A stretch of DNA of 38,737 bases from Paludibacteraceae bacterium (lineage in GTDB: Bacteria; Bacteroidota; Bacteroidia; Bacteroidales; Paludibacteraceae). The notes under the pieces were generated by a model, which searched no databases, was not told where the DNA came from, and worked only from the letters and a program-made list of their open reading frames with translations. The position numbers were made by a program, and so were the translations under genes. Every line of letters begins with the position of its first letter. Within the stretch, counting starts at the first letter, position 1. Shown in pieces: positions 8,501 through 35,402 of the stretch. The stretch spans positions 1 to 38,737 of the forward strand of contig JAKSNF010000021.1 in assembly GCA_024400115.1 (NCBI GenBank), in the 5' to 3' direction.

Positions 8501-11500
8501 AGGGAGCATATTGGAACTCTGATTTAGGTTCTGGAAATACAGGTTCAGAATGTGTTCAGAGGAACCAACATATGACCAAAATACAAAATACCGATATATT
8601 CTGGTATGACTTGAATAATGCATCAAATCAACGGAGTAACTATTTTACATTTGTCAATAAGAGTGGCGATTACAATAACTTCTACATGTGCAATGTCGTC
8701 TATCGCAATGATATGAAAGATGCACTTCCGTTCTATGTGCCTCGAAATAGTTATGCCAATGAGCACCATAATTCGTCTCAATACTTTAACGAAGGTATTT
8801 GGATGAAGTATAACAACACATATTCAGGATATAGATTATGGATTAAAAATACAGTTACTTCAGTCGTACAAGATGAAAACTACTTTAATGCAGAAATCCC
8901 TGGCGGATACGAGTTCCAAACCAAGGTTTCTTTGGCTGCTGGAGCAACGTATGAATTCAAAATCTATAATGAGAATGGAACTTGGTATGGTGCCACTGAT
9001 CAAACAATGACCGCTACCAGTTGCACAAACTGGAAGATGCATTTGAATAATGACAACTGTAAAATCACAGCATCTGAGGCTGGTAACTACACCTTTATCT
9101 TGAATCTCGGTTCGGGTGAAGTGATTGTCAGCGTGGAATATCCGCTTTCTGCCAGTGACTACCGCGTAGTCGCCAAAAAGGATTCCGAAGATAAGTGGGT
9201 AGGCGACCTAATCAAGCATTCGGACGTTGCCAAGAACGATACAACCTCGTTCTTCAATAACAACTACACCTACCAATTGCAACAATATGATAATGAAGGT
9301 AATTGGAGCGATGTTACGGGTCAAACCGTTATTCCTCCTGATAGTGCTAAACAAGGCGTTATCAACTTCATCGTTACTCAAGACGGAAACGGTTCTGCAA
9401 CCCTGGCTTATGAAGGCATTTATACCGGTAACTACTACATCCGTACCGATGGTGTAGATGGCGGTTGGGGAGATTATGAAAACAACTCTGACAACAAGAT
9501 GGATAATTATGGCTCATCGATTCAAGCCGATCCCGAATATCAGTATGATGTCTATAAAGCCAAATGGATTACTTCGGGAAAGAACGTTAAGTTCCGCGTA
9601 GCGAATGATTATAGTAAGGCTATCTCTGATGAACTGAAGGGTGATGCTGTGATTGGCAATGATAAAGAAACATTACCTCAATCTGCTAATGTTCGCTTTA
9701 TGTGGAATAGCACCACCAACCAACTCAAACGCGCCTACCTATCCGGTTCATCAAATGCTTCTGACCGCTACCTTATCCTTGAAGGCGATGATAAGATGTT
9801 TGATGAGAATGGTGATGCGTTAACAACCGAAGGTGGCGGTAAGATTGAAGGTCTCGACGACAATGAACTCAACTTTAAAGACATGAACAACTGGGTTTAT
9901 CAAGCCGACATCCAAGCACAACCCGGCTGCGAAGTCAAACTGACCGCTAAGTATAACGGCATAGTTCAGTACTTCATTGGTAAAGAAGATGACGGAGATG
10001 ATTCTCGCAGAAAGATTATTGATGGTTCCGGAACGGATAAATATAATCTCCGCGCTGTTTATGACTTTAAAACCAATCGCCTTGTGGTAGGTTGGATGCC
10101 GGGTGACACAATCAAATCTTCGATAGAGCTTGGTTCCGATATGTTGATTGAGCGCACCGGACAAGGAGACGCTTCGCAAATCGTCTTCGGTGGAGAGAGT
10201 GCAGCAAATTTGTCTATCTCTAAGATTCAACACATCTATGGTGTGCTGAAGTTGACGAAGGAGTCGATGTTAGCGGCTACCGCTACTACCTACGGTAAGT
10301 GTATCTACTGGATTAGCTTCCCGTTCGATGTCAAAGTGAGCGAAATCTTCGGTGTAGAAAAATACGGCGAAGTATGGGTCATCTCCAACTACCGTGGCGA
10401 CCTTCGTGCTCAAAAGGGTTGGTTTAAGGAAGATACTCCTACGTTCTGGGAATACCTCAAACCGACGGACATTATGAAAGCTAACGTCGGTTATACCCTT
10501 AACCTCGATCCCGACTATTTCAATAAGGAAACATCCGAACCTTGGAAGAGCGGTGCAGAAGAAGTGGCTTGGTATTTCCCCTCCATGCAGGCAAATATCG
10601 GTGTGGTTAGTCTGGCACAAAAAGATACTACCCTACTCCCTCAACACTGCGAAATCGATCGCGAGTTTAATGCGGGAACAGAAGAATCTCCAAGAATGGT
10701 CAACCATAAATTCACCGACTCCAACTGGCGCGTGATTGGTGTTCCTGCCTTCCAAAATCTGCAAGCTCCGACATTTGACCCTGCTCCTGTAACAAATCCA
10801 GATGATGAAGGAAAGAAGAACTTTGGTTTGACAGGATTCTATGAGTGGCAACCCTCAACGAACACCTATACGGTTCGGATAACAGATGGTTATACGTTCA
10901 AGGCTACCGGTGCTTACATGGTTCAATACGAAGGTAAGATTACTTGGAGTAACGCCTCTGCAATTACAACAAAGAATAGCGCACCTTGGCATGCTTCTGC
11001 CGATAGTAAGAGTTATAGCATCAAGTTAGAGTTTGGCAACGAGGCTTATACCGACCAAACATTCGTTACTTTGACTGAGAAGGCTTCGACCGACTTCGTG
11101 CTCAACGAGGACATGATGAAAATTGATAATGCCGGATTCCCGAATATCTACTCATTCGCAGGCGCTTACAACGTGGCTTACAACGAAACGAAGATGGATA
11201 ACCAAACGGTAACACTCGGTGTGAGCGCTCCGAAGGCAGGAACATACACCTTCGCTATGCCGAATCAGTTCAGCGGAACGGCTAAACTCGTTGACCTCGT
11301 AGAGGGTATCACTACCGACCTCAATGTAAGTAACTATAGCGTTGACCTCAGTAAGGGTACCTATAACGACCGCTTCCAACTCCTCCTCGAAGTAGAAGCT
11401 AAAGCGCCCACCTCTATGGAGAATGTGGATGGTGGAAAGTGGAATGTGGATGGTAAGACATTGAAGTTGCTCCGCAACGGCAATATCTACCTCATCAACG

Positions 11501-11541: not shown

Positions 11542-11543
11542 TA

Positions 11544-11576
11544 GTTTAGAGTGGAGAGTGTAGAGTTTAGAGAATA
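11544..11576 (+). repeat. Type A repeat (GTTTAGAGTGGAGAGT), intergenic
   Basis: It starts three bases after the stop of the secreted protein and precedes its terminator. Units are GTTTAGAGT, GGAGAGT, GTAGAGT and TTAGAG. First of ten type A copies found, all on the plus strand. Confidence 0.8.
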
Positions 11577-11583
11577 ACAAAAC

Positions 11584-11617
11584 CGAGCCTCGTGTGCAAT
11601 GCACGGGGCTCGTTTTT
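11584..11617 (+). terminator. Rho-independent terminator of the secreted-protein gene
   Basis: An 11-bp stem with one T-G wobble (CGAGCCTCGTG / CACGGGGCTCG) and a 7-base loop, followed by six T residues. Confidence 0.9.
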
Positions 11618-11637
11618 TGCTGAAAATGCAAGAAATA

Positions 11638-11669: not shown

Positions 11670-11680
11670 CAGCGTGTTCG

Positions 11681-12947: not shown

Positions 12948-12948
12948 A

Positions 12949-13173: not shown

Positions 13174-13180
13174 CAGCCGA

Positions 13181-13504: not shown

Positions 13505-13524
13505 CAAAAACAAACAATCAAATT

Positions 13525-13836
13525 ATGATTATACAACTCAAATCGTCCTTACACACCGAGGACCTACCGGACACAATAGCCACGCAAGTGGCGCACCATC
13601 TACAATCCACCATCCACAATCCACAAAACTCCCAAGTCATCTATGTCATGACCGGAGGAACGGAAAACCAATTCGTCCAGAAAGTACAGTTGGGCGAGAT
13701 AGACCTTGCCAAACCCGTTTATCTCGTCGCAAGCGGACAAAGTAATTCATTAGCAGCCTCGTTAGAGATTTTAGCTTACATCAACCAACATGGCGGAAAG
13801 GGGGAAATAGTTGAGAGTGTAGAGTTTAAAGTGTAG
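13525..13836 (+). CDS. Fucose-isomerase-like protein, N-terminal part
   Basis: A 103-residue frame. QVIYVMTGGTENQFV and KPVYLVASGQSNSLAASLEI resemble the first domain of the fucose/arabinose isomerase-like proteins of Bacteroidetes; ISOMERASE function on a specific sugar is not established. In intact relatives the chain runs on after the G(G/Y)KGEI-like segment through a ~25-residue helical connector to the LGIIGKPSDWL domain. Here it stops in a type A repeat that encodes ESVEFKV and a stop codon. A type B repeat encodes the LQSTIHNPQN loop. The next frame starts 8 bp later and carries the second half, so the gene is either split into two polypeptides or inactivated. Confidence 0.6.
   Translation: MIIQLKSSLHTEDLPDTIATQVAHHLQSTIHNPQNSQVIYVMTGGTENQFVQKVQLGEIDLAKPVYLVASGQSNSLAASLEILAYINQHGGKGEIVESVEFKV
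13599..13626 (+). repeat. Type B repeat (CTACAATCCACCATCCACAA), in frame
   Basis: CTACAATCCACCATCCACAA continues with TCCACAA. The same tract with one more unit lies in the aminopeptidase P gene at 15848. It encodes LQSTIHNPQN here and LQSTIHIPQSTN there. Confidence 0.8.
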
Positions 13837-13843
13837 AGTTTTT
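13808..13843 (+). repeat. Type A repeat at the break in the isomerase-like gene
   Basis: Units GTTGAGAGT, GTAGAGT, TTAAAGT and GTAGAGT end at the ATG of the second half. It occupies the place where a helical connector is expected. Confidence 0.75.
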
Positions 13844-14980: not shown

Positions 14981-15037
14981 TAAGGATAAAGGATAGAGGA
15001 TTGAGGATAAAGGATTAAGGATAAAGGATTAAGGATA
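14981..15037 (+). repeat. Type E repeat (AAGGATAAAGGAT), intergenic
   Basis: Seven units of (A)AGGAT(A/T)(A) with small variations fill the space between the terminator and the aminopeptidase P start. Related tracts lie at 18806-18858 and, on the minus strand inside aroC, at 28871-28916. Confidence 0.75.
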
Positions 15038-15038: not shown

Positions 15039-16940
15039 ATGACAGTTATTGAGAAAATAGAAGCCCTTAGGGCATTGATGAGAGAGAATGAGTTAGCCGC
15101 GTATATCGTACCCGGTACGGATCCACACGCGAGCGAGTATATGGCACCCCACTGGGCAGAGATGAATTGGCTCAGCGGTTTCACCGGCGAAAGCGGAACG
15201 ATGGTCGTCACCTTAGACGACGCACGCCTATTCACCGACAGCCGTTACTACCTCCAAGCCGAAACAGAACTGCAAGGTAGCGGCATCACCCTGATGCGCG
15301 CCTCCGATGTTGATTGCCCAAGTGTCAACCAATGGCTGACCGAAAAGTTTAGAGTGGAGAGTGTAGAGTGTAGAGTAGCTGATGAGTTCAAAAGTTTAGA
15401 GTTAATTGGCGTTAATCCGGAGATGTGGAGCATCAATCAGTTTAAGGAAATGAAGGAGGCGACAGGCGACAGGCTACAGGTGGTGTCGATTGACCTTATT
15501 CGTCCGCTGTGGACAGAGGCTCGTCCCGCTATTCCTCAACACCCTTTCTATGAATACGAAGAACAATATGCCGGCGAATCAGTAGCGTCCAAACTGCAAC
15601 GCGTACGCGAGGCTATCCAAGCCAAAGGCGCAAACGCTATCGTCATCAGCGAACTGGACGAGATAGGCTGGCTACTCAATATACGAGGCAAAGATGTCGA
15701 TTATACACCCTGCGTGATAGCCTACGTGGTAGTCGATATGAATCAATGCACCCTCTTTATCGACCCCGCCAAGGTAACACCTCAAGGACGCGCCTACATG
15801 CAACGCATCGGCGTGGAGATACAAGGATACGAGGAAGTCTTTGACTTCCTACAATCCACCATCCACATTCCACAATCCACCAATAAAGTACTAATGGACG
15901 GCAATCGCGTTAACGAGCGTTTATACGAAGCCGTGGGAGCAGAGAACGCTGTGGTAGTAACCCCCAGTCCCGTACAAGTGATGATGTCCATCAAGAACGA
16001 CACCGAGATAGCCGGAGAGAAAGAGGCACACCTCGTCGATGGAGTAGCACTTGTTAAGTTCCTCAAATGGCTTGAGGAACAGTTTAGAGTGGAGAGTTTA
16101 GAGTGTAGAGTAGTTGATAAGTTTAAGAGTTTAGAGTTGAACGAGATTGATTTGGCGGATAAGTTACACGAGTTCCGCACGATGGGTAAGAACTTCACGG
16201 ACGAGAGTTTTGCTACTATCGCCGGTTGGAAAGGTAATGGCGCTATCGTTCACTACCACGCCGAACCCGGCGAGTGCGCCACCATCGACGGCGAAGGCGT
16301 GCTGCTCCTCGATAGTGGAGGTCAGTACCTCGACGGCACCACCGACATCACTCGCACCCTGTGGATTGGCAATCCTGCCCATATACCTGCTGAAGTCAAA
16401 CACGATTATACTCTCGTTCTGAAGGGACACATAGCCCTTGCTAAAGCCCGTTTCCCCAAAGGCACACGCGGTAACCAACTCGACGTGCTCGCCCACCAGT
16501 TCATGTGGCAAGAAGGAATCACTTACGGACACGGAACAGGACACGGTGTGGGTCACTTCATGGGCTGCCATGAAGGTCCGGCAAATATCCGAACGGACAA
16601 CAACACGAACCCCATCCAACTCGGCAATATCTTCTCCGACGAACCCGGTATCTATCGTGCTAACGAGTATGGCATCCGAATAGAGAATCTGGTAGTAACA
16701 AAAGAGGTTACAGGCGACAGGCTACAGGCGACAGGCTATAAGAGTACGGGAGAGACGTACTATGAGTTTGAGGCACTGACCCGCTGCCCGTACGACAAGA
16801 ACCTCATGGATCTTGATATGCTCACCGAAGACGAGAAAGCGTGGATCAACGCCTACCACGCACAAGTATATAAAGACCTCGCACCTCGTTTGAACGCTGA
16901 CGAGGCAGCATGGCTAAACGAACAATGCAAGGCATTGTGA
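15039..16940 (+). CDS. pepP: Aminopeptidase P (Xaa-Pro aminopeptidase, M24B) with five repeat-derived inserts
   Basis: A 633-residue cytosolic metallopeptidase that removes N-terminal residues next to proline. It has two N-terminal creatinase-like domains and a C-terminal pita-bread domain. Metal ligands are visible: Asp425 in LLLDSGGQYLDG, Asp436 in TTDITRT, His in HGTGHGVGHFMGCHEGP, and Glu in EPGIYRANEYGIRIEN and near YYEFEALT. Usual length in the phylum is about 595, and the excess is explained by inserts encoded by repeats: two type A (15347-15403, FRVESVECRVADEFKSLE; 16081-16140), one type B (15848-15882) and two type C (15457-15480; 16707-16740, VTGDRLQATGYK). All keep the frame and avoid the metal site, so the enzyme is probably active. 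The ATG follows the type E tract directly. Confidence 0.93.
   Translation: MTVIEKIEALRALMRENELAAYIVPGTDPHASEYMAPHWAEMNWLSGFTGESGTMVVTLDDARLFTDSRYYLQAETELQGSGITLMRASDVDCPSVNQWLTEKFRVESVECRVADEFKSLELIGVNPEMWSINQFKEMKEATGDRLQVVSIDLIRPLWTEARPAIPQHPFYEYEEQYAGESVASKLQRVREAIQAKGANAIVISELDEIGWLLNIRGKDVDYTPCVIAYVVVDMNQCTLFIDPAKVTPQGRAYMQRIGVEIQGYEEVFDFLQSTIHIPQSTNKVLMDGNRVNERLYEAVGAENAVVVTPSPVQVMMSIKNDTEIAGEKEAHLVDGVALVKFLKWLEEQFRVESLECRVVDKFKSLELNEIDLADKLHEFRTMGKNFTDESFATIAGWKGNGAIVHYHAEPGECATIDGEGVLLLDSGGQYLDGTTDITRTLWIGNPAHIPAEVKHDYTLVLKGHIALAKARFPKGTRGNQLDVLAHQFMWQEGITYGHGTGHGVGHFMGCHEGPANIRTDNNTNPIQLGNIFSDEPGIYRANEYGIRIENLVVTKEVTGDRLQATGYKSTGETYYEFEALTRCPYDKNLMDLDMLTEDEKAWINAYHAQVYKDLAPRLNADEAAWLNEQCKAL
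15347..15403 (+). repeat. Type A repeat, in frame in pepP (first copy)
   Basis: Composite form: GTTTAGAGTGGAGAGTGTAG block, a linker TAGCTGATGAG, and a closing AGTTTAGAGTT. The linker corresponds to TAGCCGTCTAG in the intergenic copies at 16939 and 33221. Confidence 0.85.
15457..15480 (+). repeat. Type C repeat, in frame in pepP (first copy)
   Basis: GGCGACAGGCGACAGGCTAC plus AGG. It encodes EATGDRLQ. Confidence 0.75.
15848..15882 (+). repeat. Type B repeat, in frame in pepP
   Basis: CTACAATCCACCATCCACAT followed by TCCACAATCCACC. It encodes LQSTIHIPQSTN in a surface-like position before KVLMDG. Confidence 0.8.
16081..16140 (+). repeat. Type A repeat, in frame in pepP (second copy)
   Basis: The same composite layout as 15347-15403, with linker TAGTTGATAAG. 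It encodes FRVESLECRVVDKFKSLEL. Confidence 0.85.
16707..16740 (+). repeat. Type C repeat, in frame in pepP (second copy)
   Basis: Three ACAGGCGACAGGCT-like units encode TGDRLQATGY between the last two metal-ligand segments. Confidence 0.75.
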
Positions 16941-16999
16941 GTGTAGAGTGTAGAGTGTAGAGTAGCCGTCTAGTTTGATAGTTTAGAGTTGAAAGTTTT
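16939..16999 (+). repeat. Type A repeat, intergenic between pepP and argS
   Basis: Full composite copy: three GTGTAGA units, TAGCCGTCTAG, TTTGATAGTTTAGAGTTGAA and AGTTT. It begins at the pepP stop and ends nine bases before the argS start. Confidence 0.85.
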
Positions 17000-17007
17000 T
17001 ATAGTAT

Positions 17008-18807
17008 ATGCTTGAAGAGATATTAACAAAACAAGTTAAAGCCATTGTGAAAGACCTCTACGGAATAGAGGTCGAGGATAAAATGATTCAGTTGCAGAAG
17101 ACCCGTCCCGAGTTTGAAGGCAACATAACCCTCGTGGTCTTCCCCTTCGTGAAAGCTGCTCGCAAAGCTCCTGCCGTAGTAGCAGAGGAAATTGGTCAAA
17201 GATTACAAAGCGGTCTTGTATCTAAATACAACGCCGTACAGGGTTTCCTCAATCTCACGATTGCGTCCGATTTCTGGCTCAGTCAGTTAGACGCTATCGC
17301 TAAGGACGATAATTACGGTCTGTTACCCAAGCGCAACCAACTGATGATGGTGGAGTACTCCTCCCCCAACACGAATAAACCCCTACACTTGGGTCACGTG
17401 CGCAATAACCTACTCGGTTACTCGATTGCCCAGATACAGAAAGCCTGCGGTTGGAGAGTGGTGAAGACCAATATCGTCAACGACCGCGGTATCCACATCT
17501 GCAAATCTATGCTCGCGTGGAAACTATTCGGCAACGGTGAGACTCCCGAATCGACAGGCAAGAAAGGTGACCACTTGATTGGTGACTACTATGTTCGTTT
17601 TGACAAAGAGTACAAAGCCCAAGTAGCCGAACTCATGTCCAAAGGCTTAGACGAGGACGCTGCCAAAGCGCAAGCTCCCCTCATGCAAGAGGCACAAGCT
17701 ATGCTTCTCCAATGGGAACAAGGCGACCCCGAAGTGCGCCAGTTATGGGCACAGATGAACGGTTGGGTTTATGCCGGCTTCGACGAGACCTACAAAACCA
17801 TGGGCGTTGATTTCGACAAGATTTACTACGAGTCCCAAACTTACCTCGAGGGCAAGTCCGAAGTGGAGAAAGGACTGGCTTCCGGCGCATTCTACCGCCG
17901 CGAGGATGGTAGTGTGTGGGCAGACCTAACCTCCAACGGATTGGACGAGAAACTGCTGCTCCGTAAGGACGGCACGTCCGTTTATATGACCCAAGACATA
18001 GGTACAGCCAAGATACGTTTCCAAGACTACCCCATTGACAAGATGGTTTATGTCGTGGGTAACGAACAAGAATACCATTTCCAAGTGCTCTCTATCCTCC
18101 TCGACCGCCTCGGTTTCCCGTTCGGTAAGGAGTTAGTGCACTTCTCCTACGGCATGGTTGAACTGCCTAACGGCAAGATGAAGAGCCGCGAAGGAACAGT
18201 AGTCGATGCCGACGACCTGATGGCAAAAATGATTGAAGACGCGCGCGAGATAAGTAAGGATAAGGTGAATACCCTACCCGACATCACCGAAGCGGAAGCC
18301 AACGAGATAGCCCGCAAAGTGGGACTGGGTGCCCTCAAGTACTTCATCCTCAAAGTCGATCCGAGAAAGAACATGCTCTTCAATCCCGCCGAGAGTATTG
18401 ACTTTAACGGCAATACAGGTCCGTTCATTCAATATACCTACGCGCGTATTCAGTCTATTCTTAGAAAGTTTAAAGTTGAAAGTTTAAAGTTGAAAGAAGT
18501 TGATAAGTTTAATAGTTTAGAGTTGGAAGTGGAGAGTTTGAATGAGAAAGAGACACAACTCATTCAGCGTCTGGCTGAGTATCCAAATATCGTTAAGCAA
18601 GCCGGAGAGGATTTCTCGCCTGCCGTGATTGCCAACTACGCTTATGCCTTAGCCTGCGACTTCAACTCGTTCTATCACGACTATTCGATACTGAACGAAG
18701 AGAACGAAGCCGTTCGCGCTATGCGTATTCAACTCAGCGGTGTGGTAGCCAAAGTGTTAGAGAAAGCCATGAGCCTACTTGGCATCGAGATGCCGGAGAG
18801 GATGTAA
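17008..18807 (+). CDS. argS: Arginyl-tRNA synthetase
   Basis: A 599-residue class I aminoacyl-tRNA synthetase that charges tRNA-Arg. The N-terminal Add-1-like domain is followed by the HIGH motif (SSPNTNKPLHLGHVRNN), VNDRGIHICKSM, the KMSKS counterpart GKMKSREGTVV, and the anticodon-binding region with FIQYTYARIQSIL. The length fits the family. After RIQSIL a type A repeat (18466-18540) adds the stretch KFKVESLKLKEVDKFNSLEL before the normal NEKETQLIQRLAEYP; this is a surface linker in the anticodon-binding part, so activity is probably kept. It lies 67 bp after pepP, with only repeats in between. Confidence 0.95.
   Translation: MLEEILTKQVKAIVKDLYGIEVEDKMIQLQKTRPEFEGNITLVVFPFVKAARKAPAVVAEEIGQRLQSGLVSKYNAVQGFLNLTIASDFWLSQLDAIAKDDNYGLLPKRNQLMMVEYSSPNTNKPLHLGHVRNNLLGYSIAQIQKACGWRVVKTNIVNDRGIHICKSMLAWKLFGNGETPESTGKKGDHLIGDYYVRFDKEYKAQVAELMSKGLDEDAAKAQAPLMQEAQAMLLQWEQGDPEVRQLWAQMNGWVYAGFDETYKTMGVDFDKIYYESQTYLEGKSEVEKGLASGAFYRREDGSVWADLTSNGLDEKLLLRKDGTSVYMTQDIGTAKIRFQDYPIDKMVYVVGNEQEYHFQVLSILLDRLGFPFGKELVHFSYGMVELPNGKMKSREGTVVDADDLMAKMIEDAREISKDKVNTLPDITEAEANEIARKVGLGALKYFILKVDPRKNMLFNPAESIDFNGNTGPFIQYTYARIQSILRKFKVESLKLKEVDKFNSLELEVESLNEKETQLIQRLAEYPNIVKQAGEDFSPAVIANYAYALACDFNSFYHDYSILNEENEAVRAMRIQLSGVVAKVLEKAMSLLGIEMPERM
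18466..18540 (+). repeat. Type A repeat, in frame in argS
   Basis: Degenerate composite copy: AAAGTTTAAAGTTGAAAGTT, linker GAAGTTGATAAG, then AATAGTTTAGAGTTGGAAGT. It lies between the helix ending in RIQSIL and the NEKE helix. Confidence 0.8.
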
Positions 18808-18858
18808 GGAGAAAGGATGAAGGAGAAAGGATGAAGGAAAAAGGAGAAAGGAGAAAGG
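18806..18858 (+). repeat. Type E repeat (GGAGAAAGGATGAA), intergenic
   Basis: Units of AAGGAGAAAGGATGA repeated with small changes, ending directly at the ATG of the next gene; the last unit supplies GGAGAAAGG, which could act as a Shine-Dalgarno-like sequence. Confidence 0.75.
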
Positions 18859-20040
18859 ATGACAAATTCTGAAATACAAACGATTAAGCAACGATTTGGG
18901 ATTATCGGCAATAATGCCCAACTCAATCGTGCTATCGAAGTAGCGGTACAAGTGGCCGTTACGGATCTGTCCGTTCTGGTAACCGGCGAGTCGGGTGTGG
19001 GTAAGGAGTTCTTCCCGCAAATCATTCACGCCAACTCAGCACGTAAGCACGGTCCGTACTTCGCCGTTAACTGCGGTGCTATCCCCGAAGGAACGATTGA
19101 TAGTGAACTCTTTGGCCACGAGAAAGGTGCTTTCACCGATGCCAAAGCCGACCGTAAGGGTTATTTCGAGATAGCCAACGGCGGAACACTCTTCCTCGAT
19201 GAAGTGGGCGAACTACCCCTCTCCACCCAAGTGAGACTACTGCGTGTCTTAGAGACCGGCGAATTCATTAAGATGGGTTCCAGTCAAGTACAGAAGACCA
19301 ACGTTCGCGTAGTGGCAGCCACGAACTTAGATATGAAAACGGCTATACAAGAAGGACGTTTCCGCGAGGACCTCTACTACCGTTTGAACACAGTAGAAAT
19401 CAAAGTGCCTGCTTTACGCGACAGACGGGAGGATATACCATTGCTCTTCCGTAAGTTCGCTGTCGATTTTAGCGACCGCTACCGCATGCCCGCTATTCGT
19501 CTCAACGAGGAGGCTAATCGGTTACTGCAATCGTACTACTGGAACGGTAACATAAGACAACTCAAGAACGTGGCAGAACAGATCTCTATCATTGAAACCA
19601 ACCATGATATTAATGCCGAGACGCTGCGTAAGTATATACCCGAAACGGAAAAACAGAACGGAATAGCTTTGGTAGGGCACAAGATGAACGGCGATTCATT
19701 TATGAACGAGCGTGAGTTACTCTATAAGGTTCTTTTCGATATGAAACGCGACATGACCGAACTCAAAGCGCAATTCAATGAACTCAAAGCCGGAGCCGCC
19801 AACACGATGGTTCAATACCCTACTCCCCTACACCCCTACTCCTCTACTCCTAATAATGAGGACTACCAAATGGCTGACGAAGTGAGAGAGGAACCCGAAA
19901 AAACGATGGAGGAGATAGAGCGTGAACGCATAGCCGATGCTTTAGCGCATCATAAGGGCAACCGCAAGAAAGCGGCAGAGGAATTAGGTATGACGGAACG
20001 AACACTCTACCGACGTCTAAAGGAGTACGGGCTGTCATAG
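18859..20040 (+). CDS. Sigma-54-type AAA+ transcriptional regulator without receiver domain
   Basis: A 393-residue protein. It starts directly with the AAA+ domain: Walker A GESGVGKE (residues 43-50), the sigma-54 contact loop GAFTDA (90-95, canonical GAFTGA), Walker B TLFLDEVGELP, and the arginine region FREDLYYRLN. A Fis-type helix-turn-helix closes the chain (HHKGNRKKAAEELGMTERTL, then YRRLKEYGLS). No N-terminal sensory domain is present, which is common for this gene in Bacteroidales. A type F repeat (19816-19853) encodes YPTPLHPYSSTP between the AAA+ and DNA-binding parts. It lies upstream of LptE and SecG, an order often seen in the group. Confidence 0.9.
   Translation: MTNSEIQTIKQRFGIIGNNAQLNRAIEVAVQVAVTDLSVLVTGESGVGKEFFPQIIHANSARKHGPYFAVNCGAIPEGTIDSELFGHEKGAFTDAKADRKGYFEIANGGTLFLDEVGELPLSTQVRLLRVLETGEFIKMGSSQVQKTNVRVVAATNLDMKTAIQEGRFREDLYYRLNTVEIKVPALRDRREDIPLLFRKFAVDFSDRYRMPAIRLNEEANRLLQSYYWNGNIRQLKNVAEQISIIETNHDINAETLRKYIPETEKQNGIALVGHKMNGDSFMNERELLYKVLFDMKRDMTELKAQFNELKAGAANTMVQYPTPLHPYSSTPNNEDYQMADEVREEPEKTMEEIERERIADALAHHKGNRKKAAEELGMTERTLYRRLKEYGLS
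19816..19853 (+). repeat. Type F repeat (CCTACTCCCCTACACCCC), in frame
   Basis: Units CCTACTCC, CCTACACC, CCTACTCC and TCTACTCC. The reverse complement occurs as GGAGTAGGGTGTAGAGGAGT in the glycosyltransferase gene (26992-27037). Confidence 0.75.
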
Positions 20041-20097
20041 TTTAGAGTGGAGAGTTGAGAGTGTAAAGTAGCCTTCTAGTTTATAAGTTGAGAGTTA
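20040..20097 (+). repeat. Type A repeat, intergenic before lptE
   Basis: GTTTAGAGTGGAGAGTTGAG, GTGTAAA, linker GTAGCCTTCTAG, then TTTATAAGTTGAGAGTT, ending at the ATG of the next gene. Confidence 0.85.
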
Positions 20098-25995: not shown

Positions 25996-27147
25996 TCACC
26001 ACCTGTTTCCCTTATATTTCCACTTGGTTGCCATCAAGTACGCTTGCACCAAGGGCATTGTTATATCGTAGAACAATATCTCTATTCCCCACCTTGGGTG
26101 CTTCCACTCGCGTGTAGCGCTATTGATGAAAGCGAGCATTACAGCAAGTCTTACCCATAATACCACAAAGATTATGCCACACAGTAGCGGTCCACCAAGC
26201 ACCAAACCCACGATGCTACTTGCATAAAACAGGCCACGTGTGAACGGTTCAATAAAGAGGTGCCACTTGGTTTGAGTTTTGTATAAGGGAGACACGCTCA
26301 AATGACGGCGTTTCTGCTCCACCCAACTCTTCCAATTCGTTTTAGCTTTTGACCATGTTACCGATTCTTGACTTGTCACCACTGCGGTATTCGTTTTATT
26401 TGCCACTTTATTAACAAACAAATCATCATCTCCTGCACGCGTCTCCATGAGATGACTAAACCCTCCCGATTCAAGGAAACAACTCTTGCGATAGGCGAGG
26501 TTACGCCCAACGCCCATGTAAGGCTGATGACGGAGCGCTGCCCCTAAAAAATGCAGAGCATTAAACTGCGTGTCGTACTGTATCCACTCATTGATGAACG
26601 AGTCTTCCTCAAAATAGGCACCGTAACCAATAACAATATCTATGTTTGGGTCACTAAAGCCACTCATCATCTGACTAATCCAATCGGGGGACTCGGGTCG
26701 GCAATCGGCATCCGTGAGTAATAAGTAATCGTATTTAGCCGCTTTGGCAGCAAGCGTGAGAGCTAATTTCTTAGTACTCATCACGCGAGCATTAACCGGA
26801 ACAAAAGTGGTGCGTAACTTGAAGTCCTGCTTCATATAGCGAGCCAACACCTCTTCCGTATGGTCTATAGACCCATCGTTAACAACAATCACCTCATAAA
26901 TAGGATAATCTTGCGAAAGAAGACTATGCAGATATTCCTCTAAATGCTCTTCCTCGTTCTTGGCACACACCACCACGGTTACAGGTGGTTGATCCCCTAC
27001 TCCTCTACACCCTACTCCTCTACACCCCTTTCCTCTCACTGCTCCTACGTAATAGGCATAGTAAAAGACTTGGTACACCAAAGCGATGCCCAAAATCGCG
27101 ATTATCAACCACTCAAACCAGTTAATATCAATAAACAAGTGCCACAT
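25996..27147 (-). CDS. Family 2 glycosyltransferase, membrane-anchored
   Basis: A 383-residue enzyme. An N-terminal membrane helix (WLIIAILGIALVYQVFYYAY) precedes the GT2 fold: TVVVCAKNEEEHLEEYL, VIVVNDGS, LLLTDADC (D-x-D), GDDDLFVNKVA and the EQKRRH catalytic-region motif, then two or three C-terminal helices. A type F repeat (26992-27037) encodes KGCRGVGCRGVGD between the anchor and the catalytic fold. It probably adds sugars to envelope glycans; the product is unknown. It overlaps the PCMD gene by 20 bp and lies 23 bp before DUF3467. Confidence 0.9.
   Translation of the reverse strand: MWHLFIDINWFEWLIIAILGIALVYQVFYYAYYVGAVRGKGCRGVGCRGVGDQPPVTVVVCAKNEEEHLEEYLHSLLSQDYPIYEVIVVNDGSIDHTEEVLARYMKQDFKLRTTFVPVNARVMSTKKLALTLAAKAAKYDYLLLTDADCRPESPDWISQMMSGFSDPNIDIVIGYGAYFEEDSFINEWIQYDTQFNALHFLGAALRHQPYMGVGRNLAYRKSCFLESGGFSHLMETRAGDDDLFVNKVANKTNTAVVTSQESVTWSKAKTNWKSWVEQKRRHLSVSPLYKTQTKWHLFIEPFTRGLFYASSIVGLVLGGPLLCGIIFVVLWVRLAVMLAFINSATREWKHPRWGIEILFYDITMPLVQAYLMATKWKYKGNRW
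26992..27037 (-). repeat. Type F repeat, in frame in the glycosyltransferase gene
   Basis: On the coding strand the units are GTGTAGAGGAGTAGG repeated, encoding CRGVGCRGVGDQ. Confidence 0.75.
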
Positions 27148-28086: not shown

Positions 28087-29055
28087 CTATAATTTATTAA
28101 CTTGACTTATAACCAATGCTGCCATTGCTTCCACAATCGGAACTGCCCTCGGCACGAAACATATATCCGTCCTTAACGTAATCTCTCCACTTGTAGCCTG
28201 TAGTCCGTCCTTTTTCGCCTGTAGCCTCGTACTTGGCGTTGGTCTAAACACACATCTAAACGTAAGGGGTGTTCCATCGCTGATACCACCACTGATACCG
28301 CCACTGACGCCATTGATTTCAGAACCGAGTTTATCCACTCCCTCAAAACCGCTACCGTAATCAAAGCCCTTGCAACCATTAATACTCATTATTGCGTAGG
28401 CTAAATGGCTTTGCAGTTTATCAAAAATAGGTTCACCTATACCCACAGGCAATCCTGTAATCGTACAGGTAATGATTCCACCCACCGAATCGCCCTTTGC
28501 TGCCGCACGCTTAATCTCCTCATCAAAATGAGCAGGATTAACCTCCCTACCTATTTGTGCCACGTGGGCATGAATATGTATTCCTTTTTGTGCCAATACT
28601 TGTTTAGCCATCGCTCCTGCCACTACCCGACCTGCCGTCTCGCGAGCCGAAGCACGTCCTCCTCCGCGATGGTCACGAATGCCATATTTGAGTTGATACA
28701 CGCGGTCAGCATGACCGGTGCGAAACGTATGACGAAAAACCTCATAGTCCTCGGGGCGTGCGTCCGTATTACGAATAAGGAACGCTATCGGCGTGCCCAA
28801 TGTCTTACCTTCAAACACACCACTAAGCCATTCTACTTCATCCTTCTCACGCCTCGCCCGTGGCGAAGTACCATCCTCAATCCTCCTTCCTTCCTCCTTC
28901 ATCCGCCTTCCTCCCCTTCGGTTGAGTTCCTCGCGAATCATGTCAAGGTCGATGGTCAGTCCGGCAGGCACGCCGTCAATCACTCCGCCGATAGCAACCG
29001 AGTGCGATTCACCAAAAGAGGTAAAACTAAAACTATTTCCAAACCGATTGGACAT
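28087..29055 (-). CDS. aroC: Chorismate synthase with repeat inserts
   Basis: A 322-residue FMN-dependent enzyme that makes chorismate, the last shikimate step. Motifs: FTSFGESHSVAIGGVIDG, SGVFEGKTLGTPIAFLIRN, GHADRVYQLKYGIRDHRGGG, SARETAGRVV and FVPRAVPIVEAMAALV. In place of the usual RRRPG...TxR loop after ELNRR, a type E tract adds about ten Arg/Glu-rich residues (GGRRMKEEGRRIEDGTSP). A type C tract (28190-28231) encodes LQAKKDGLQATS near the C-terminus. I chose ATG 29055 because the ATG at 29085 lies in the promoter. First gene of an eight-gene operon. Confidence 0.93.
   Translation of the reverse strand: MSNRFGNSFSFTSFGESHSVAIGGVIDGVPAGLTIDLDMIREELNRRGGRRMKEEGRRIEDGTSPRARREKDEVEWLSGVFEGKTLGTPIAFLIRNTDARPEDYEVFRHTFRTGHADRVYQLKYGIRDHRGGGRASARETAGRVVAGAMAKQVLAQKGIHIHAHVAQIGREVNPAHFDEEIKRAAAKGDSVGGIITCTITGLPVGIGEPIFDKLQSHLAYAIMSINGCKGFDYGSGFEGVDKLGSEINGVSGGISGGISDGTPLTFRCVFRPTPSTRLQAKKDGLQATSGEITLRTDICFVPRAVPIVEAMAALVISQVNKL
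28190..28231 (-). repeat. Type C repeat, in frame in aroC
   Basis: On the coding strand: GAGGCTACAGGCGAAAAAGG, then ACTACAGGCTACAA. It encodes RLQAKKDGLQATSG. Confidence 0.7.
28871..28916 (-). repeat. Type E repeat, in frame in aroC
   Basis: On the coding strand the units are GGAAGGCGGATGAAGGAGGA, AGGAAGGAGGATTGAGGATG. It resembles the intergenic tracts at 14981-15037 and 18806-18858 and encodes the Arg/Glu-rich insert. Confidence 0.75.
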
Positions 29056-30375: not shown

Positions 30376-32436
30376 ATGAACAAGACAGAGAATTTAAACA
30401 AGTTCGCCATTAACTTATGCGAACGTGCCCAAGCGGGCAAACTCGACCCCGTCATCGGACGGGACGACGAGATAAGGCGCGTATTGCAAATACTATCGCG
30501 CCGAACGAAGAATAACCCTATCCTCATCGGTGAACCCGGTGTAGGTAAAACGGCTATTGCCGAAGGACTTGCCCACCGTATCATTCGCGGTGACGTGCCC
30601 GAGAACCTCAAGCGCAAACTCATTTACTCGCTGGATATGGGTGCCCTCGTTGCCGGTGCTAAGTACCAAGGCGAGTTCGAGGAGCGCCTCAAAGGCGTCA
30701 TCAACGAAGTAGTCGAAGCCGCCGGCGAGATTATCCTTTTCATTGACGAGATACACGTACTCGTAGGTGCCGGCAAGAGTGCCGGAGCGATGGATGCCGC
30801 CAATATCCTCAAACCTGCCCTCGCACGAGGCGAACTGCGCGCTATCGGAGCCACCACGCTTGACGAGTATCAGAAGTACTTTGAGACGGACAAAGCCCTT
30901 GAACGCCGCTTCCAGAAAGTGATGGTAAGCGAACCCGACGAGGCGGCTACTATCTCTATTCTCCGCGGACTAAAAGAACGCTACGAGACACACCACCGCG
31001 TGCGTATTCAAGACGATGCTCTCATTGCCGCTGTCAGTCTATCCGCACGGTACATAACCGACCGTTTCCTGCCCGATAAAGCGATTGACCTCATCGACGA
31101 GGCGGCTGCTAAACTCAGACTCGAGGTCGATTCCGTTCCTGAAGTAATCGACGATATAGAACGCCAAATCAAGCAGTTGGAGATTGAAAGAGTGAGCCTC
31201 AAGAGGGAGGCTACAGGCGACAGGCAACAGGCGACAGGCGATAGGCTACAAGGTATTGAGAAGCAGTTAGAGGAGTTGAAGGCGAAAGATAAAGAACTGC
31301 GTGCACAATGGGATAAGGAGAAAGGCTATGTAACCACCATCCAGAACGAGAAAGCACGTATAGAGACAATGAAACACGAAGCCGAGGTTGCCGAACGCGA
31401 AGGTAATTACGAACAAGTGGCTAAGATACGCTACGAGTCTATTCCCGCTGCCGAAGCCACCATCAAAGCCGCCCAAGAACACCTCGTCTCTCAACCTCTT
31501 ATCAAAGAGGAAGTCACCGGCGAGGACATCGCCGATATAGTGGCTCGTTGGACGGGTATTCCGGTCAGTAAGATGATGCAATCAGAGCGCAACAAACTGC
31601 TCCAATTGGAAACGGAACTGCACAAGCGCGTCATTGGTCAAGAGGAGGCTATCGAAGCCGTTAGTGACGCTATTCGTCGCTCTCGTGCGGGACTGCAAGA
31701 CCCCAAACGTCCGATTGGTTCGTTTATCTTCTTAGGTACGACAGGCGTAGGTAAAACCGAACTGGCAAAAGCCTTAGCCGATTACCTGTTTGATGACGAG
31801 AATATGATTACGCGTATCGACATGAGCGAGTACCAAGAGAAGTTCTCCGCCACGCGTCTCATCGGAGCGCCTCCCGGATACGTGGGCTATGACGAGGGCG
31901 GTCAGTTGACAGAAGCTATTCGTCGCAAACCCTACTCCGTCATCCTCTTTGACGAGATAGAAAAAGCCCATCCCGATGTGTTCAATGTGCTCTTGCAACT
32001 ATTAGACGATGGTCGTTTGACGGATAACAAGGGGCGTACCGTGAACTTCAAGAACACGCTTATTATCCTCACTTCTAACCTCACGGAGGAGCAATTGAGA
32101 GCGCAAGTAAGACCGGAGTTTATCAATCGCATAGACGATATTATTCGCTTCACAGAACTCAGTGAAGACGACATCCGCAAGGTAGTGGAATTACAGATTG
32201 GGCGCGTACACAAGATGCTGTTAGAGAACGGTATCGAACTGCGTGTAACGAAGGATGCTGTCGATTATATCGCTCATGAGGGTTATGATCCTGCTTTTGG
32301 TGCTCGTCCGGTCAAGAGAGCTTTGCAACGCTTGGTTCTCAACGAATTGAGTAAGTCTATTATTGCAGGGAAGGTAAACGGTCAACAGCCGGTTATTGTC
32401 GAGCTCCGCGATGGAGAGTTGCATTTCAAGAATTAA
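30376..32436 (+). CDS. clpB: ClpB-type disaggregase lacking the N-terminal domain
   Basis: A 686-residue AAA+ protein that threads aggregated proteins with ATP. Two AAA modules are present: Walker [10 protein letters not shown] (from residue 52) and GTTGVGKTE (from 454), with Walker [14 protein letters not shown] and [13 protein letters not shown], a coiled-coil M-domain at about 265-380, and the C-terminal [17 protein letters not shown] segment ([16 protein letters not shown]). The Clp-N repeats, about 150 residues in normal ClpB (~860), are absent: the chain starts at the position of the internal start of ClpB. A type C repeat (31208-31252) encodes [16 protein letters not shown] in the M-domain, and the usual stretch between TSN and RPEFINRID is shortened by about 15-20 residues. 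Probably active. Confidence 0.92.
31208..31252 (+). repeat. Type C repeat, in frame in the ClpB M-domain
   Basis: Five units: GGCTACAGGCGACAGGCAAC, then AGGCGACAGGCGATAGGCTA, CAAGG. The inserted peptide lies in the coiled coil, where a heptad shift would be expected. Confidence 0.85.
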
Positions 32437-33218
32437 ACATTATTCGGATAATGCAAATGTAATCTCATACGCTCTTGTTTTAGGTGTTCCGCAAAAGCCG
32501 CAGCCTCGGGTGAATCGGGGTGAAGCGGACGATGGTGCTCATCTAACCATAACTGGTGAAGCGGTTCCAACTGCTTGAGCGTATGGGGCTCGAAATAAGT
32601 AGCACAGAAACGCTCCCAAAGAATATCAACCGCCACCTGAGAGGGATGAACAAGGTCAGAGGCGTAAAAACGATAGTCACGAAGTTCGTCCAGCAGAAGC
32701 TCGTAAGATGGGAAATAGTTTATAGTTGAAAGTTGAATGTTTAATGTATCAACTGCTTGTAGGAGAATGCCCTTTGATATTTGGTTCTCATGAAGACCAT
32801 CTTTCTTATGACGAATAGGCGAAACGGTAAAGATCCAACGCTTTTCGGCATAATGCTCTACGATAGGTTGCCACAGCGAGACAATCTCCTCTACCGTCAA
32901 TCGGCGACGAATAAAGTCCGTAGCCGGACGCTTCTCGCAGTTATCGACAACGGCAGAAAGGCTTTTATCAACATAGACCCAAGCGGTGCCAAAAGTGATG
33001 ATGATAACATCAGCTTGAGGGGCGTACTCGTCAATATGATGCGCAATAGAGACGGGGTTATAAAGCGTTCCTGTCGGATTAGCCGTAACACGGAGATAAC
33101 ACTCGCGCATCTTGTCCGCTATGCGGTCGGAGAAACACGAACCCAAAAGTAATATACGGTCCTCAAGACCAATCTTCCAAGTAGAGGGAGTTATATCAAC
33201 GGGAGTAGTTAATGTCAT
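32433..33218 (-). CDS. GSCFA-domain protein
   Basis: A 261-residue protein. [15 protein letters not shown] is the signature at about 25-40; [21 protein letters not shown] and [12 protein letters not shown] follow. GSCFA proteins resemble SGNH hydrolases and are widespread in Bacteroidota, but their substrate is unknown. A type A repeat (32716-32750) encodes NIQLSTINY before [18 protein letters not shown]. The stop codon overlaps that of clpB (4 bp, convergent). Confidence 0.9.
32716..32750 (+). repeat. Type A repeat, in frame in the GSCFA gene
   Basis: TAGTTTATAGTTGAAAGTTG, then AATGTTTAATGTATC. It is the second half of the type A composite and reads on the plus strand, opposite to its host gene. 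Confidence 0.65.
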
Positions 33219-33220
33219 AT

Positions 33221-33294
33221 AGTGTAGAGTGGAGAGTTTAGAGTGTAGAGTAGCCGTCTAGTGATATAGTTTATAGTTTAGAGTTGATAGTTGA
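33221..33294 (+). repeat. Type A repeat, between GSCFA and lpxH genes
   Basis: Full composite: AGTGTAGAGTGGAGAGTTTA, GAGTGTAGAG, linker TAGCCGTCTAG, TGATATAGTTTATAGTTTAG, AGTTGATAGTTGAG. It overlaps the last codons of lpxH (ending LLNYQL). Confidence 0.85.
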
Positions 33295-34084
33295 GTAAAG
33301 AGAGGTTGCCGTTTTCGTCCAAGGCGGCATAAGTTCCTTGGCGGAAGAGGTCTCCTAATATGACCACACGTGTGCGAGCACTAATCTGCAAGTCCAATTC
33401 GATATGGCGATGACCGAAAATGAAGTAATCCACTTCGTGGGTCTTACTGTATTCTTTAGCAAACTGCACCAACGCTTCGTTGGCTTCGCCCTTATACTCC
33501 GTTGGTTCTACCATCTCGCGACGACGTGACTTAGCTGCCCACGAGAAACCGATAGCGTCCCCCACACACGGAGGCACCAAGCGGAAAAAGAACTGCGCCA
33601 CACGGCAGTGGAAGAAACGGCGCAACCATTGGTAGTGGTTCTCCCAACAGAACTCGTCGCCATGAGCAAGGAAACAGACCACTTCGTTGAATGACCGCTG
33701 CGCTGTAAGACCCGCTGACGCTGCTGCGTCTGAAAGACCGCTTCGCTGAAAGACGGTAGTAAGAGGTTTTTTATGGATAATAGCACCGGTCATTTGGGCG
33801 AGTTGACCAAACGTCCAAAGGTCGTGATTACCCGTGAAGAAATGCACCTCAATGCCACGGTCGGTAAGGGAACGGAGTTCGTTTAAGAACGAACCAAAAC
33901 GATGTTGTTTGGAACGTGTAGGCCAGAAATACTCGAACCAGAAGTCGAAGATGTCACCCATCAGATAGATAGCGGTGGCATCTTTGCTGAGTGTCTCCAA
34001 CAAAGTCACTATCTTGTCTTGGTGATTACGTGCATCTGGCAACGCCTTCGAGCCTAAGTGTATGTCGCTTAAAAAATAGACCAT
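33278..34084 (-). CDS. lpxH: UDP-2,3-diacylglucosamine hydrolase-like phosphoesterase
   Basis: A 268-residue calcineurin-like metal phosphoesterase. Metal ligands: Asp7 and His9 in FLSDIHLGS, Asp44 in MGDIFDFWFEYFW, Asn/His in FTGNHDLWTFG, His in LAHGDE and FGHRHIELDL. It removes UMP from UDP-2,3-diacylglucosamine in lipid A synthesis. A type H tract (33693-33755) encodes QRSGLSDAAASAGLTAQRSF between GAIIHKKPLTTVF and NEVVCFLAHGDE, inside the catalytic domain but away from the ligands. The last residues come from a type A repeat. Confidence 0.9.
   Translation of the reverse strand: MVYFLSDIHLGSKALPDARNHQDKIVTLLETLSKDATAIYLMGDIFDFWFEYFWPTRSKQHRFGSFLNELRSLTDRGIEVHFFTGNHDLWTFGQLAQMTGAIIHKKPLTTVFQRSGLSDAAASAGLTAQRSFNEVVCFLAHGDEFCWENHYQWLRRFFHCRVAQFFFRLVPPCVGDAIGFSWAAKSRRREMVEPTEYKGEANEALVQFAKEYSKTHEVDYFIFGHRHIELDLQISARTRVVILGDLFRQGTYAALDENGNLSLLNYQL
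33693..33755. repeat. Type H repeat (AGACCGCTTCGCTGAA), in frame in lpxH
   Basis: Units TGACCGCTGCGCTGTA, AGACCCGCTGACGCTGCTGC and AGACCGCTTCGCTGAA. Each unit holds a small palindrome. A second tract lies in rsmE at 34873-34944. Confidence 0.75.
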
Positions 34085-34194
34085 GATTATTTACGATTTA
34101 TTATTTTTCTTTTAATTATTTATCTCTCGCATATTAACACTTATTCCTTAGTTTTTTTCTCCCGCAGATGACGCAGATTTTACAGATTTTTTTA

Positions 34195-34624
34195 TCTCCC
34201 GCTCACTCGCGTTGCTCGTTATTTCGCTCGCTACGCTATTTCGCCTCATCGCAATAGCCTCGCTTTATGCTTTTATTCCGGGCGGTTACGCACGCCCTAC
34301 CCCCGTCGAAGCAACCTCACAACGATTGGAAATCCAGTAGGTTCCCAATGGGATGTTTCGGTAGCTTCTCCTTAATTACGCAGATAAGATACATTTCGTT
34401 TTCCTTCCTTTTGTACACAAATAATAATGTAGCGTAATTGAGGAGGGCTGGCTTGCAAATTACATGAGGAACCCACCGGATTGCTCATCATTTTGCTAGC
34501 CTGACCGACGGGCAAAGCGTGTGCTTTAGCCACGCGGAATGAACTAAATAAGCGCGGGTTTTAGCCATGGCGGCTAATAGCCGAAGGCGTGCGTAATAGC
34601 GGACCACTGTCCGCGAGCGGGAGA
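34195..34624. repeat. Non-coding ~430-bp element with inverted-repeat ends
   Basis: The left end TCTCCCGCTCACTCGCG (34195-34211) is inverted as CGCGAGCGGGAGA at 34612-34624. A second pair lies inside: GGGCGGTTACGCACGCCC (34276-34293) against GGCGTGCGTAATAGCGG (34586-34602). An internal long stem joins AGCTTCTCCTTAATTACGC (34361-34380) to GCGTAATTGAGGAGGGCT (34434-34452). Several small hairpins follow. No frame longer than background covers it. It could be a miniature transposon or a structured RNA; it separates lpxH from rsmE. Confidence 0.5.
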
Positions 34625-34628
34625 CAAC

Positions 34629-35402
34629 TTACTCATTTAGCAATATAGCGGTGTGACAAGCTACGACAGCGGCGGTTTCGGTGCGGAGGCGACTATTACC
34701 CAAACTGACGGGCACATAGCCGTTCTTCAACGCCAAATCAATCTCCGCTTCGCTAAAATCCCCTTCGGGACCGATCAGTATCGTGATAGAGTTTAGAGTG
34801 GAGAGTTTAGAGTGGAGAGTTATCTCGTCTTTGAGTTCGCGCTTGTCTTGCTCGTAACAGTGAGCGATATATAGACCGCCCTGCGGGCTACAAGACCGTC
34901 CTGCGGACTGAAGGACCGCGTCGCTGAAAGACCGCTTCGCTGAATGATTTTGGATGAAATCATCAAACGGAGTTAAGTCGTTAACGACCGGCAGATAAGG
35001 GGTAAGGGACTGCTTAGCCGCGGAGAGAACAATCTTCTCCAAGCGGTCAAGGCGTAGCGTCTTACGCTCGCTAAAACGGCAGAGCAAAGGCGTTATCTCA
35101 TCTACACCTATCTCGGTACATTTCTCAATAGCCCACTCCAATCGCTCTATGTTTTTCGTAGGAGCAATGGCTATGTGCAGATGGAAATGGTGATGAGGCT
35201 CTTGCTTTTGGGAAGAGATAATCTCAAACTCACAATGTTTAGGGTGCGGGTTCGTGATACGCGCCGTATAGGTAGTGCCACGTCCGTCAGTAAGCAGGAT
35301 CTCGTCGCCACGGTCGTACCTCAGTACGCGAACACAGTGCTGCGACTCTTCTTCAGAGAGGGTGTGTGACGTGGCAATATCAGGGGTATAAAAGAGATAC
35401 AT
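34629..35402 (-). CDS. rsmE: 16S rRNA m3U1498 methyltransferase
   Basis: A 257-residue SPOUT-class enzyme that methylates U1498 of 16S rRNA with SAM. N-terminal PUA-like domain (HCVRVLRYDRGDEILLTDG), then NIERLEWAIEKCTEIGVDEI, the knot segment ILIGPEGDFSEAEIDLAL and LGNSRLRTETAAVVA. Two repeats are in frame: type H (34873-34944, RSFSDAVLQSAGRSCSPQGG) and type A (34790-34821, LHSKLSTLNS) just before the GPEGDF knot. It starts one base after the permease stop. Confidence 0.92.
   Translation of the reverse strand: MYLFYTPDIATSHTLSEEESQHCVRVLRYDRGDEILLTDGRGTTYTARITNPHPKHCEFEIISSQKQEPHHHFHLHIAIAPTKNIERLEWAIEKCTEIGVDEITPLLCRFSERKTLRLDRLEKIVLSAAKQSLTPYLPVVNDLTPFDDFIQNHSAKRSFSDAVLQSAGRSCSPQGGLYIAHCYEQDKRELKDEITLHSKLSTLNSITILIGPEGDFSEAEIDLALKNGYVPVSLGNSRLRTETAAVVACHTAILLNE
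34790..34821 (+). repeat. Type A repeat, in frame in rsmE
   Basis: AGTTTAGAGTGGAGAGTTTA, GAGTGGAGAGTT: two units on the plus strand, opposite to the host gene. Confidence 0.85.
34873..34944. repeat. Type H repeat, in frame in rsmE
   Basis: Four units of about 18-20 bp: AGACCGCCCTGCGGGCTACA, AGACCGTCCTGCGGACTGAA, GGACCGCGTCGCTGAA and AGACCGCTTCGCTGAA. Each unit carries a hairpin such as GCCC-TGC-GGGC or GTCC-TGC-GGAC. Confidence 0.8.

Follow-up and report, generated by a model that had tools for sequence, protein, structure and literature searches.

Hairpins at the 5' end of a dispersed heptamer-repeat element found between and inside genes of a Paludibacteraceae genome

Introduction

A 38,737-nt stretch (hereafter the window) of a Paludibacteraceae draft genome raises the question of how short repeats come to occupy intergenic DNA and also, in frame, the conserved proteins of one bacterium. 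The genome of 2.14 Mb comprises 60 contigs and is 98.95% complete. An earlier note on the window had described several families of low-complexity tracts in both settings, ascribed them to an active process that seeds repeats and selects in-frame, loop-tolerant insertions, and stated that no named system does this. The present analysis centred on the most numerous family, type A, a dispersed element of about 58 bp. Its copies stand beside hairpins far above chance, and it is therefore likely to be a very small mobile DNA with hairpins as its landing sites.

Arrays were first counted in 439 kb of the genome and then in 838,737 bp (839 kb, 39% of the genome, window included), where mechanically called open reading frames (ORFs) cover 89% of the sequence. 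Draft genomes were used throughout, with no strain pairs among them; the related genomes are uncultured Bacteroidales or Paludibacteraceae metagenome-assembled genomes, several labelled as from ruminant or horse faeces. The closest relative found with type A, designated G077, is a draft that is 66% complete and shares about 69-87% identity in aligned DNA. Coordinates without a prefix refer to the window, and to its forward strand unless marked otherwise.

Results

Type A consists of about 58 bp of direct 7-bp units around a non-repetitive core, with a sharp 5' end; a typical copy reads, 5' to 3', AGTTTAGAGTGGAGAGTTTAGAGTTTAGAGTAGCCGTCTAGTTTATTAGTTTAGAGTT (letter frequencies over 160 copies). 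The core AGAGTAGCCGTCTRGTT occurred 85 times genome-wide with up to two mismatches, compared with none for the reversed control. Some variants have other cores, certain of which contain a small hairpin, and such composites recur at several sites. The profile of the 160 copies showed no terminal inverted repeat of the kind that marks MITEs, and adjacent copies lay on the same strand in 97 of 120 pairs. Allowing one mismatch, the core was found in 15 of 101 genus genomes (80 copies in the genome studied, 29 in G077 and 1-4 in each of thirteen others) and was absent from 86, so that the burst is confined to a small section of the genus. The description of the repeats as low-complexity tracts is incomplete for type A; families B to E look like plain arrays.

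Hairpins were scored when a perfect stem of at least 7 bp ended no more than 6 nt from the element, the 3' side being taken at position +59. The pattern was first noticed in sample 1; sample 2 was fetched later and was chosen for its A copies, not for hairpins. A hairpin lay 5' of type A at 15 of 68 copies in sample 1 and 10 of 83 in sample 2, against 50 and 42 of 5000 random positions (Fisher p 2e-15 and 7e-9), about 18 times the chance level. On the 3' side the counts were 0/68 and 1/83, and control windows placed 100-145 nt upstream and 150-195 nt downstream held no hairpin (0/67 each). The hairpin sequence differs from site to site. Inside ORFs, 20 of 89 copies had a 5' hairpin (control 41/6000), as did 6 of the 71 at gene edges or between genes. 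When array ends replaced element ends, hairpins were still found upstream of type A in 15 of 83 cases (control 1%); the other families gave 2/85 upstream and 1/85 downstream by the same measure. In the second species, G077, 10 of 56 type A copies had a hairpin under slightly laxer settings with no matched control.

Two sites in pepP allow the hairpin to be followed into relatives. The second type A copy of this gene (16081-16139, in frame at about residues 348-367, as placed by the relatives' alignment and the structural model) is directly preceded by the hairpin GTTCCTCAAATGGCTTGAGGAAC (16058-16080, unstranded; 9-bp stem, gap 0). At this position L004 and L008 have TTCTTCAAATGGCTGGAAGAA, encoding FFKWLEE, with a 6-bp stem and no element; the longer stem of the present genome goes with an F to L change. 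At the 3' end of pepP, the hairpin ACAATGCAAGGCATTGT (16922-16938, unstranded; 7-bp stem) stands 1 nt from the element between pepP and argS, and its arms pair at 7 of 7 positions, compared with 5 of 7 in L011 (by reading), with a K to Q change. Judged from these relatives, the pepP hairpins preceded the element in a weaker form. An origin of the palindrome from an added inverted copy of the flank was rejected for the second pepP element, where both arms align with native residues.

Among 25 A sites shared with G077, six had stems of at least 6 bp in the present genome and five of these were also stems in G077, compared with 49 of 255 control stems (p 0.0016), in a small sample with slightly different stem definitions for shared sites and controls. 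At L026:16877 and L099:15502 stems occur in both species with nearly all letters changed, and two G077 stems have no partner in the present genome among the shared sites. The start of the G077 element was misplaced in a few rows where the present genome has stems of 5, and the six rows used are unaffected. The retention of stems with changed letters points to copying or repair that would keep the arms matched.

Within the 839 kb, 89 of 160 type A copies lie inside ORFs of at least 150 aa and 71 at their edges or between genes. The in-ORF copies, 64 antisense and 25 sense, use the reading phases unevenly (antisense 48/11/5, p 9e-12; sense 15/9/1, p 0.003, both against even use). Hosts include PepP, ArgS, LpxB, AroB and SerS, and ten hosts were scanned out of the 20 whose element adjoins a hairpin, with Pfam domains present in every one (Phos_pyr_kin, GH2, DHH, GHMP kinase, tRNA_Me_trans, LpxB, DHQ synthase, SpoIID, formyl transferase and seryl-tRNA synthetase). 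In LpxB the element, at about residues 256-275, falls within a single domain match (residues 4-392). The repeats are thus confirmed both between genes and inside genes that are real, and the ORF and phase counts support a process that seeds them and a filter for frame and loop.

Comparison with G077 showed turnover at shared sites. By script, 28 of 34 A sites of the present genome were filled in G077, and 28 of 32 after reading, a rate that is inflated because the G077 contigs were picked for carrying A copies. On reading, L106:5212 proved to be filled despite an 'empty' mark, L026:19474 was mis-mapped and dropped, and L099:18447 and L099:18527 face a single G077 element. Orthologous elements agreed at 24.8 of 31 positions, compared with 23.8 for other pairs between the two genomes; the true partner was the best match for 8 of 25, and all three AAAGT-class elements of the present genome face AGAGT-class ones in G077. 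Conversely, 13 of 39 G077 A sites were scripted as empty here, and after one mis-mapped row (L153) had been dropped, reading found another repeat family at 9 of 12, L149:2558 and L162:1437 being less surely placed. Of 16 non-A sites of the present genome, six had a repeat in G077 (four type A, one other heptad, one same family) against 6 of 150 controls (p 2e-4); these are scripted counts, and on reading the row L103:18836, scripted as 'none', has the same heptads. The ten sites without a called G077 repeat differed by a net +12, +36, +27, +9, +9, 0, +18, +179, 0 and -9 nt (present genome versus G077), nine of the ten being multiples of three.

Alignment with homologues covered pepP, argS, aroA, aroC, clpB, the GSCFA gene and the sigma-54-type gene; no relative spanned the repeat site of the glycosyltransferase. 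Against most of 11 relatives, pepP gains about 12-15, 5, 13 and 6 residues at four repeat sites. Besides the second type A copy, its repeats are an in-frame type A at 15346-15404 (about residues 103-122; an insertion relative to the 11 relatives, two of which have other inserts, and a low-confidence coil in the model), a type B array (ACAGGNN) at 15457-15480, a type C array (ATCCACN) at 15854-15880 (+5 residues) and a type B array at 16705-16738 (about +6). L003 and L009 carry unrelated repeats at the same loops. The AlphaFold model weakly supports residues 108-117 and 351-365 as loops, since its mean predicted local distance difference test score is 68.8 and parts of the conserved core are weak too. 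Beyond the gene, 6 of 11 relatives have an ATGA overlap of the pepP stop with the probable argS start, and the 67-bp gap found here is a type A element with a matching core, which fills 16940-17007 and has the final base of the pepP stop as its first position.

The short repeat of aroC (28880-28919, reverse strand) adds about 10 residues relative to PDB 5z9a, and the type B array in the middle region of clpB (31208-31250) adds 4 relative to PDB 1qvr. The three arrays of aroA, all on the reverse strand, change its length by +2, +1 and 0 residues: a type F array at 22035-22072, where the G077 orthologue has type A; a type F array at 22253-22284, facing GCTGATT heptads in G077; and a type I array at 22387-22414, equal in length to repeat-free G077 sequence. 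The GSCFA protein, with its type A-like array (32715-32747, reverse strand), shows no length gain, being one residue shorter than its G077 counterpart. ArgS falls one residue short of its L002 counterpart and is longer than those of the other seven relatives shown, and the sigma-54-type protein is shorter than in L008. The proposed addition of 8-25 residues is therefore borne out only in part: at several sites the repeat replaced a loop of similar length, which goes some way towards the outcome that the note itself had named as refuting its claim. The use of loops was upheld, as those of pepP and aroA hold different repeats in different species.

The window holds 17 period-7 arrays (score at least 12), and five Markov shuffles averaged 0; periods 14, 21 and 28 accompany them, and other tested periods gave 0-2. 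The 439 kb yielded 116 such arrays, one shuffled copy of it none, and the 839 kb yielded 252, of which 241 fall into 12 unit families (133 type A, 21 E, 20 B, 18 C, 16 D, 10 J and six smaller families) and 11 lie outside them. The families share a unit rule of about five fixed and two variable positions (AGAGT-KK, ACAGG-NN, AAGGA-NN). The pattern GTTTAGAGTGGAGAGT had 350 occurrences genome-wide with up to two mismatches, compared with 7 for its reversed control, so that the repeats do extend across the genome. Other periods were rarer in 839 kb (33 arrays of period 16, 30 of 11 and 28 of 8), and not every family of the window has period 7, as lpxH and rsmE hold period 16 and the glycosyltransferase period 15. 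In L002, L003, L004, L008, L009 and L011, arrays of period 11, 12, 15 and 16 occur besides 7, some of them in frame in pepP. Spread by phage found no support in a search with a single exact 23-mer repeat pattern, which had no occurrence in viral_contigs.

A candidate mobiliser lies at 1060-2028, a divergent RAYT/TnpA-Y1 gene that matched NCBIfam NF047646 (REP_Tyr_transpos) at E 4.1e-6 and 26.8 bits, under the cut-off of 80; Pfam gave no match for it. Its HuH motif (H89-x-H91) and Y151-x3-N155-P156 are invariant in seven aligned proteins. The gene is bracketed by the hairpin repeat CTCGCATTGAATGCGAG (986-1021, 36 nt) and a second copy, 92% identical, at 2033-2068. The genome has three divergent RAYTs. 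Hairpin repeats particular to each gene adjoin the window and C22 copies on either side and the C11 copy on one side; G077 has one RAYT. Beside the other two, hairpin units form arrays at L097:1403-1702 (44-bp spacing) and L098:1635-3039 (49-74-bp spacing). In all three, Y-x3-NP is followed by a conserved C-terminal extension (about 150 residues; HVRR...SPFIS...KP...SPW) that looks Rossmann-like by eye. RAYT number was examined for tracking of array number across species, and no link was found. Reverse-transcriptase copying was ruled out for this genome, which had no RVT_1 match (0 in a genome 98.95% complete), and loss of MutS was dismissed since two MutS-type genes are present. SbcD, a relative of Mre11, had no match in this genome; matches above the TIGR00619 cut-off were found in none of nine genus genomes, compared with three of four genomes from other families of the order.

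The remaining repeats of the window flank or enter other genes. The array part of a type A element lies just after the giant secreted gene (11543-11572), and the ORF at 13525-13836 contains a type C array (13598-13626) with a type A array over its end (13809-13838). Further type A copies are in frame in argS (18467-18529, an AAAGT variant), between the sigma-54-type gene and the next gene (20039-20097), between the GSCFA gene and lpxH, extending into the end of the lpxH ORF (33221-33294), and, as an array, inside rsmE antisense to the gene (34788-34821). Type E arrays (AAGGANN) occur directly upstream of the pepP start (14982-15036) and between argS and the sigma-54-type gene (18806-18859); both directly precede start codons, and many of their AAGGA units are Shine-Dalgarno-like. 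A type D array of 12 units (GTTTCTY) lies at 37867-37952. Repeats of other periods comprise the period-15 repeat of the glycosyltransferase (26995-27036, reverse strand), the period-16 repeat AGACCGCTGCGCTGAA of lpxH (33676-33754, unstranded) and period-20 and period-16 repeats in rsmE (34873-34944, unstranded). As for the genes, residue 7 of ClpB (30376-32436) aligns with residue 153 of the PDB 1qvr ClpB, so the protein starts near the first AAA domain and the N-terminal domain is seemingly missing. Two conserved strings, ATTTGCATATAT...TTTGCA and TGTAATTTTGCA, with 21 and 14 copies in 439 kb of this genome, are perhaps promoter-like elements.

Discussion

The reading we favour, at about even chances, is that type A is inserted as single-stranded DNA 3' of hairpins, probably by an HUH (RAYT-like) transposase, and would persist only between genes or in open, loop-tolerant frames. 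It starts from two observations, the dispersal of copies that possess a core and begin sharply on the 5' side, and the hairpins that adjoin this end far more often than the 3' end, within genes as well. A nick at the foot of a hairpin would accept the element, after which the 3' end of the left flank could fold back and copy one arm onto the other to yield a perfected palindrome, which would survive where the hairpin nuclease SbcD is lacking. The frame bias would result from selection against stops, and the differences in units and cores at shared sites may reflect rewriting through slippage and through conversion between copies. For the insertion the leading candidate enzyme is RAYT, as a hairpin-reading, single-strand enzyme fits a one-sided process. 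The heptamer families B to L use the same loops without the hairpin link and may spread differently.

Several results weigh against this reading. A perfect stem of 7 was lacking at 126 of 151 type A copies, so that the strict rule fits about one in six and the hairpin is either not obligatory or decayed; with array ends, moreover, the 3' side of type A gave 3/83, above the 1% control. The ends of type A are ambiguous by a few bases, and a target-site duplication could for that reason not be assigned. Stem conservation rests on only six shared sites, and at L018:13917 a stem of 8 is absent in G077. Hairpins flanking RAYTs differ from those beside type A; that of the window, the only one searched genome-wide, occurs in one of 98 loci, its own. 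G016 and G017 have 28 and 31 exact GTKKAGA matches with no RAYT match, and G008, G015 and G019 have RAYTs with no GTKKAGA matches. Four of the nine genus genomes show weak, sub-cut-off SbcD matches, in a search confined to SbcD. The correlation of element strand with GC skew was marginal (rho 0.31, p 0.05), partly self-made and confounded.

It is possible, though we think it rather unlikely, that the hairpins are merely an insertion target for any structure-seeking enzyme, ordinarily inherited and with the palindrome unaltered. In relatives that lack the element, the two arms of the pepP hairpins belong to the native coding sequence, and at L018:15436 G077 has, by reading, the hairpin with no A element, as inheritance would have it. 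Against this, both pepP stems are more perfect than those of the relatives (9 versus 6 bp; 7/7 versus 5/7) and carry amino-acid changes, albeit in small numbers, and the stems at L026:16877 and L099:15502 persist in both species with mostly different letters. The most far-reaching interpretation, which we offer tentatively and consider unlikely as a whole, is that type A represents a new class of mobile DNA addressed by shape and not by sequence. It would enter the 3' foot of any hairpin and use foldback copying to make the flank a perfect palindrome; where a genus lacks SbcD, hairpins in conserved genes would then become docking sites for successive repeat families and steadily supply new loops to core enzymes.

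Mobility could also be dispensed with altogether, replication slippage making heptamer arrays everywhere and selection keeping those in loops and gaps. The 7-bp period shared by many unrelated families, the variable unit numbers and the plain appearance of families B to E agree with this, and the presence of MutS is no obstacle, 7-nt loops lying beyond its usual reach. Slippage leaves the one-sided hairpin link unexplained, however, and is hard to reconcile with a non-repetitive core in 85 copies and with composite variants holding internal hairpins at several sites, so that we regard it as improbable. A functional role, for example as regulatory or RNA hairpin signals under selection, appears very improbable: the elements take both orientations in ORFs (64 antisense, 25 sense) of unrelated genes, their units and cores differ at the same site, and the window had no Rfam match, which also set aside a known RNA. 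In its favour are the roughly 28 of 32 usable A sites filled in both species, a figure inflated by contig choice, and hairpins that persist with changed letters.

The claim that no named system behaves in this way was too strong, and the note had overlooked both the hairpin rule and the rewriting of elements at shared sites. According to a review, Rickettsia palindromic elements (RPE), which are 105-146 bp, palindromic and bounded by terminal inverted repeats, insert in frame in conserved proteins and also between genes, the first report having counted 19 reading frames (PMC2229807). Type A is likewise dispersed, between genes and in frame inside conserved proteins, but it consists of about 58 bp of direct 7-bp units, and its palindrome lies in the flank and is different at each site. 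Cyanobacterial short tandemly repeated repetitive (STRR) sequences are heptanucleotide tandem units dispersed in the genome, as here; we know of no cored element or hairpin rule among them, both being features of type A. Group IIC introns also insert 3' of hairpins, but they need a reverse transcriptase, and the present genome has no RVT_1 match. TAACTGA heptamers occur in Beggiatoaceae, cyanobacteria and some Bacteroidetes, mostly between genes and in some ORFs, and other heptamers have been reported in intergenic regions of Bacteroidetes (PMC4679880). These too are tandem 7-bp units found within some ORFs; they form one unit family, as against no fewer than 12 here, together with a cored element, frame bias inside many conserved genes, a hairpin link and family swapping. 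The Y-x3-NP motif is given as the signature of class 2 RAYTs, and the window RAYT resembles REP/RAYT systems in its HuH motif, Y-x3-NP and flanking hairpin repeats (PMC6006769). It departs from them in that no fixed hairpin is common to RAYT flanks and A elements and that counts are uncoupled across species. In quasipalindrome template switching, imperfect palindromes are reportedly perfected by self-templated synthesis. Foldback priming in the absence of the Mre11 nuclease is described in another study (PMC10622511). Palindrome perfecting is common to these systems and to the one proposed here, and it is not known to be tied there to the insertion of repeat elements. In-frame insertion is therefore already known, and what is new is the hairpin rule and family swapping, for which there was no prior report in the literature searched, mostly without subscription papers.

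If the favoured reading is true, type A would exemplify sequence-independent, structure-guided insertion within conserved bacterial coding genes. A single element numbers 160 copies in 39% of a 2.1-Mb genome, 56% of them in ORFs, a scale above that of the 19 frames that the review gives for the first Rickettsia report (PMC2229807). Such a system would open to experiment the entry of new peptide segments into core enzymes, the origin and spread of heptamer repeats, which in several phyla are unexplained, and the reasons why hairpins stay rare in other genomes. For this group there is a warning too, in that variable repeat-coded loops in its proteins can be young DNA insertions.

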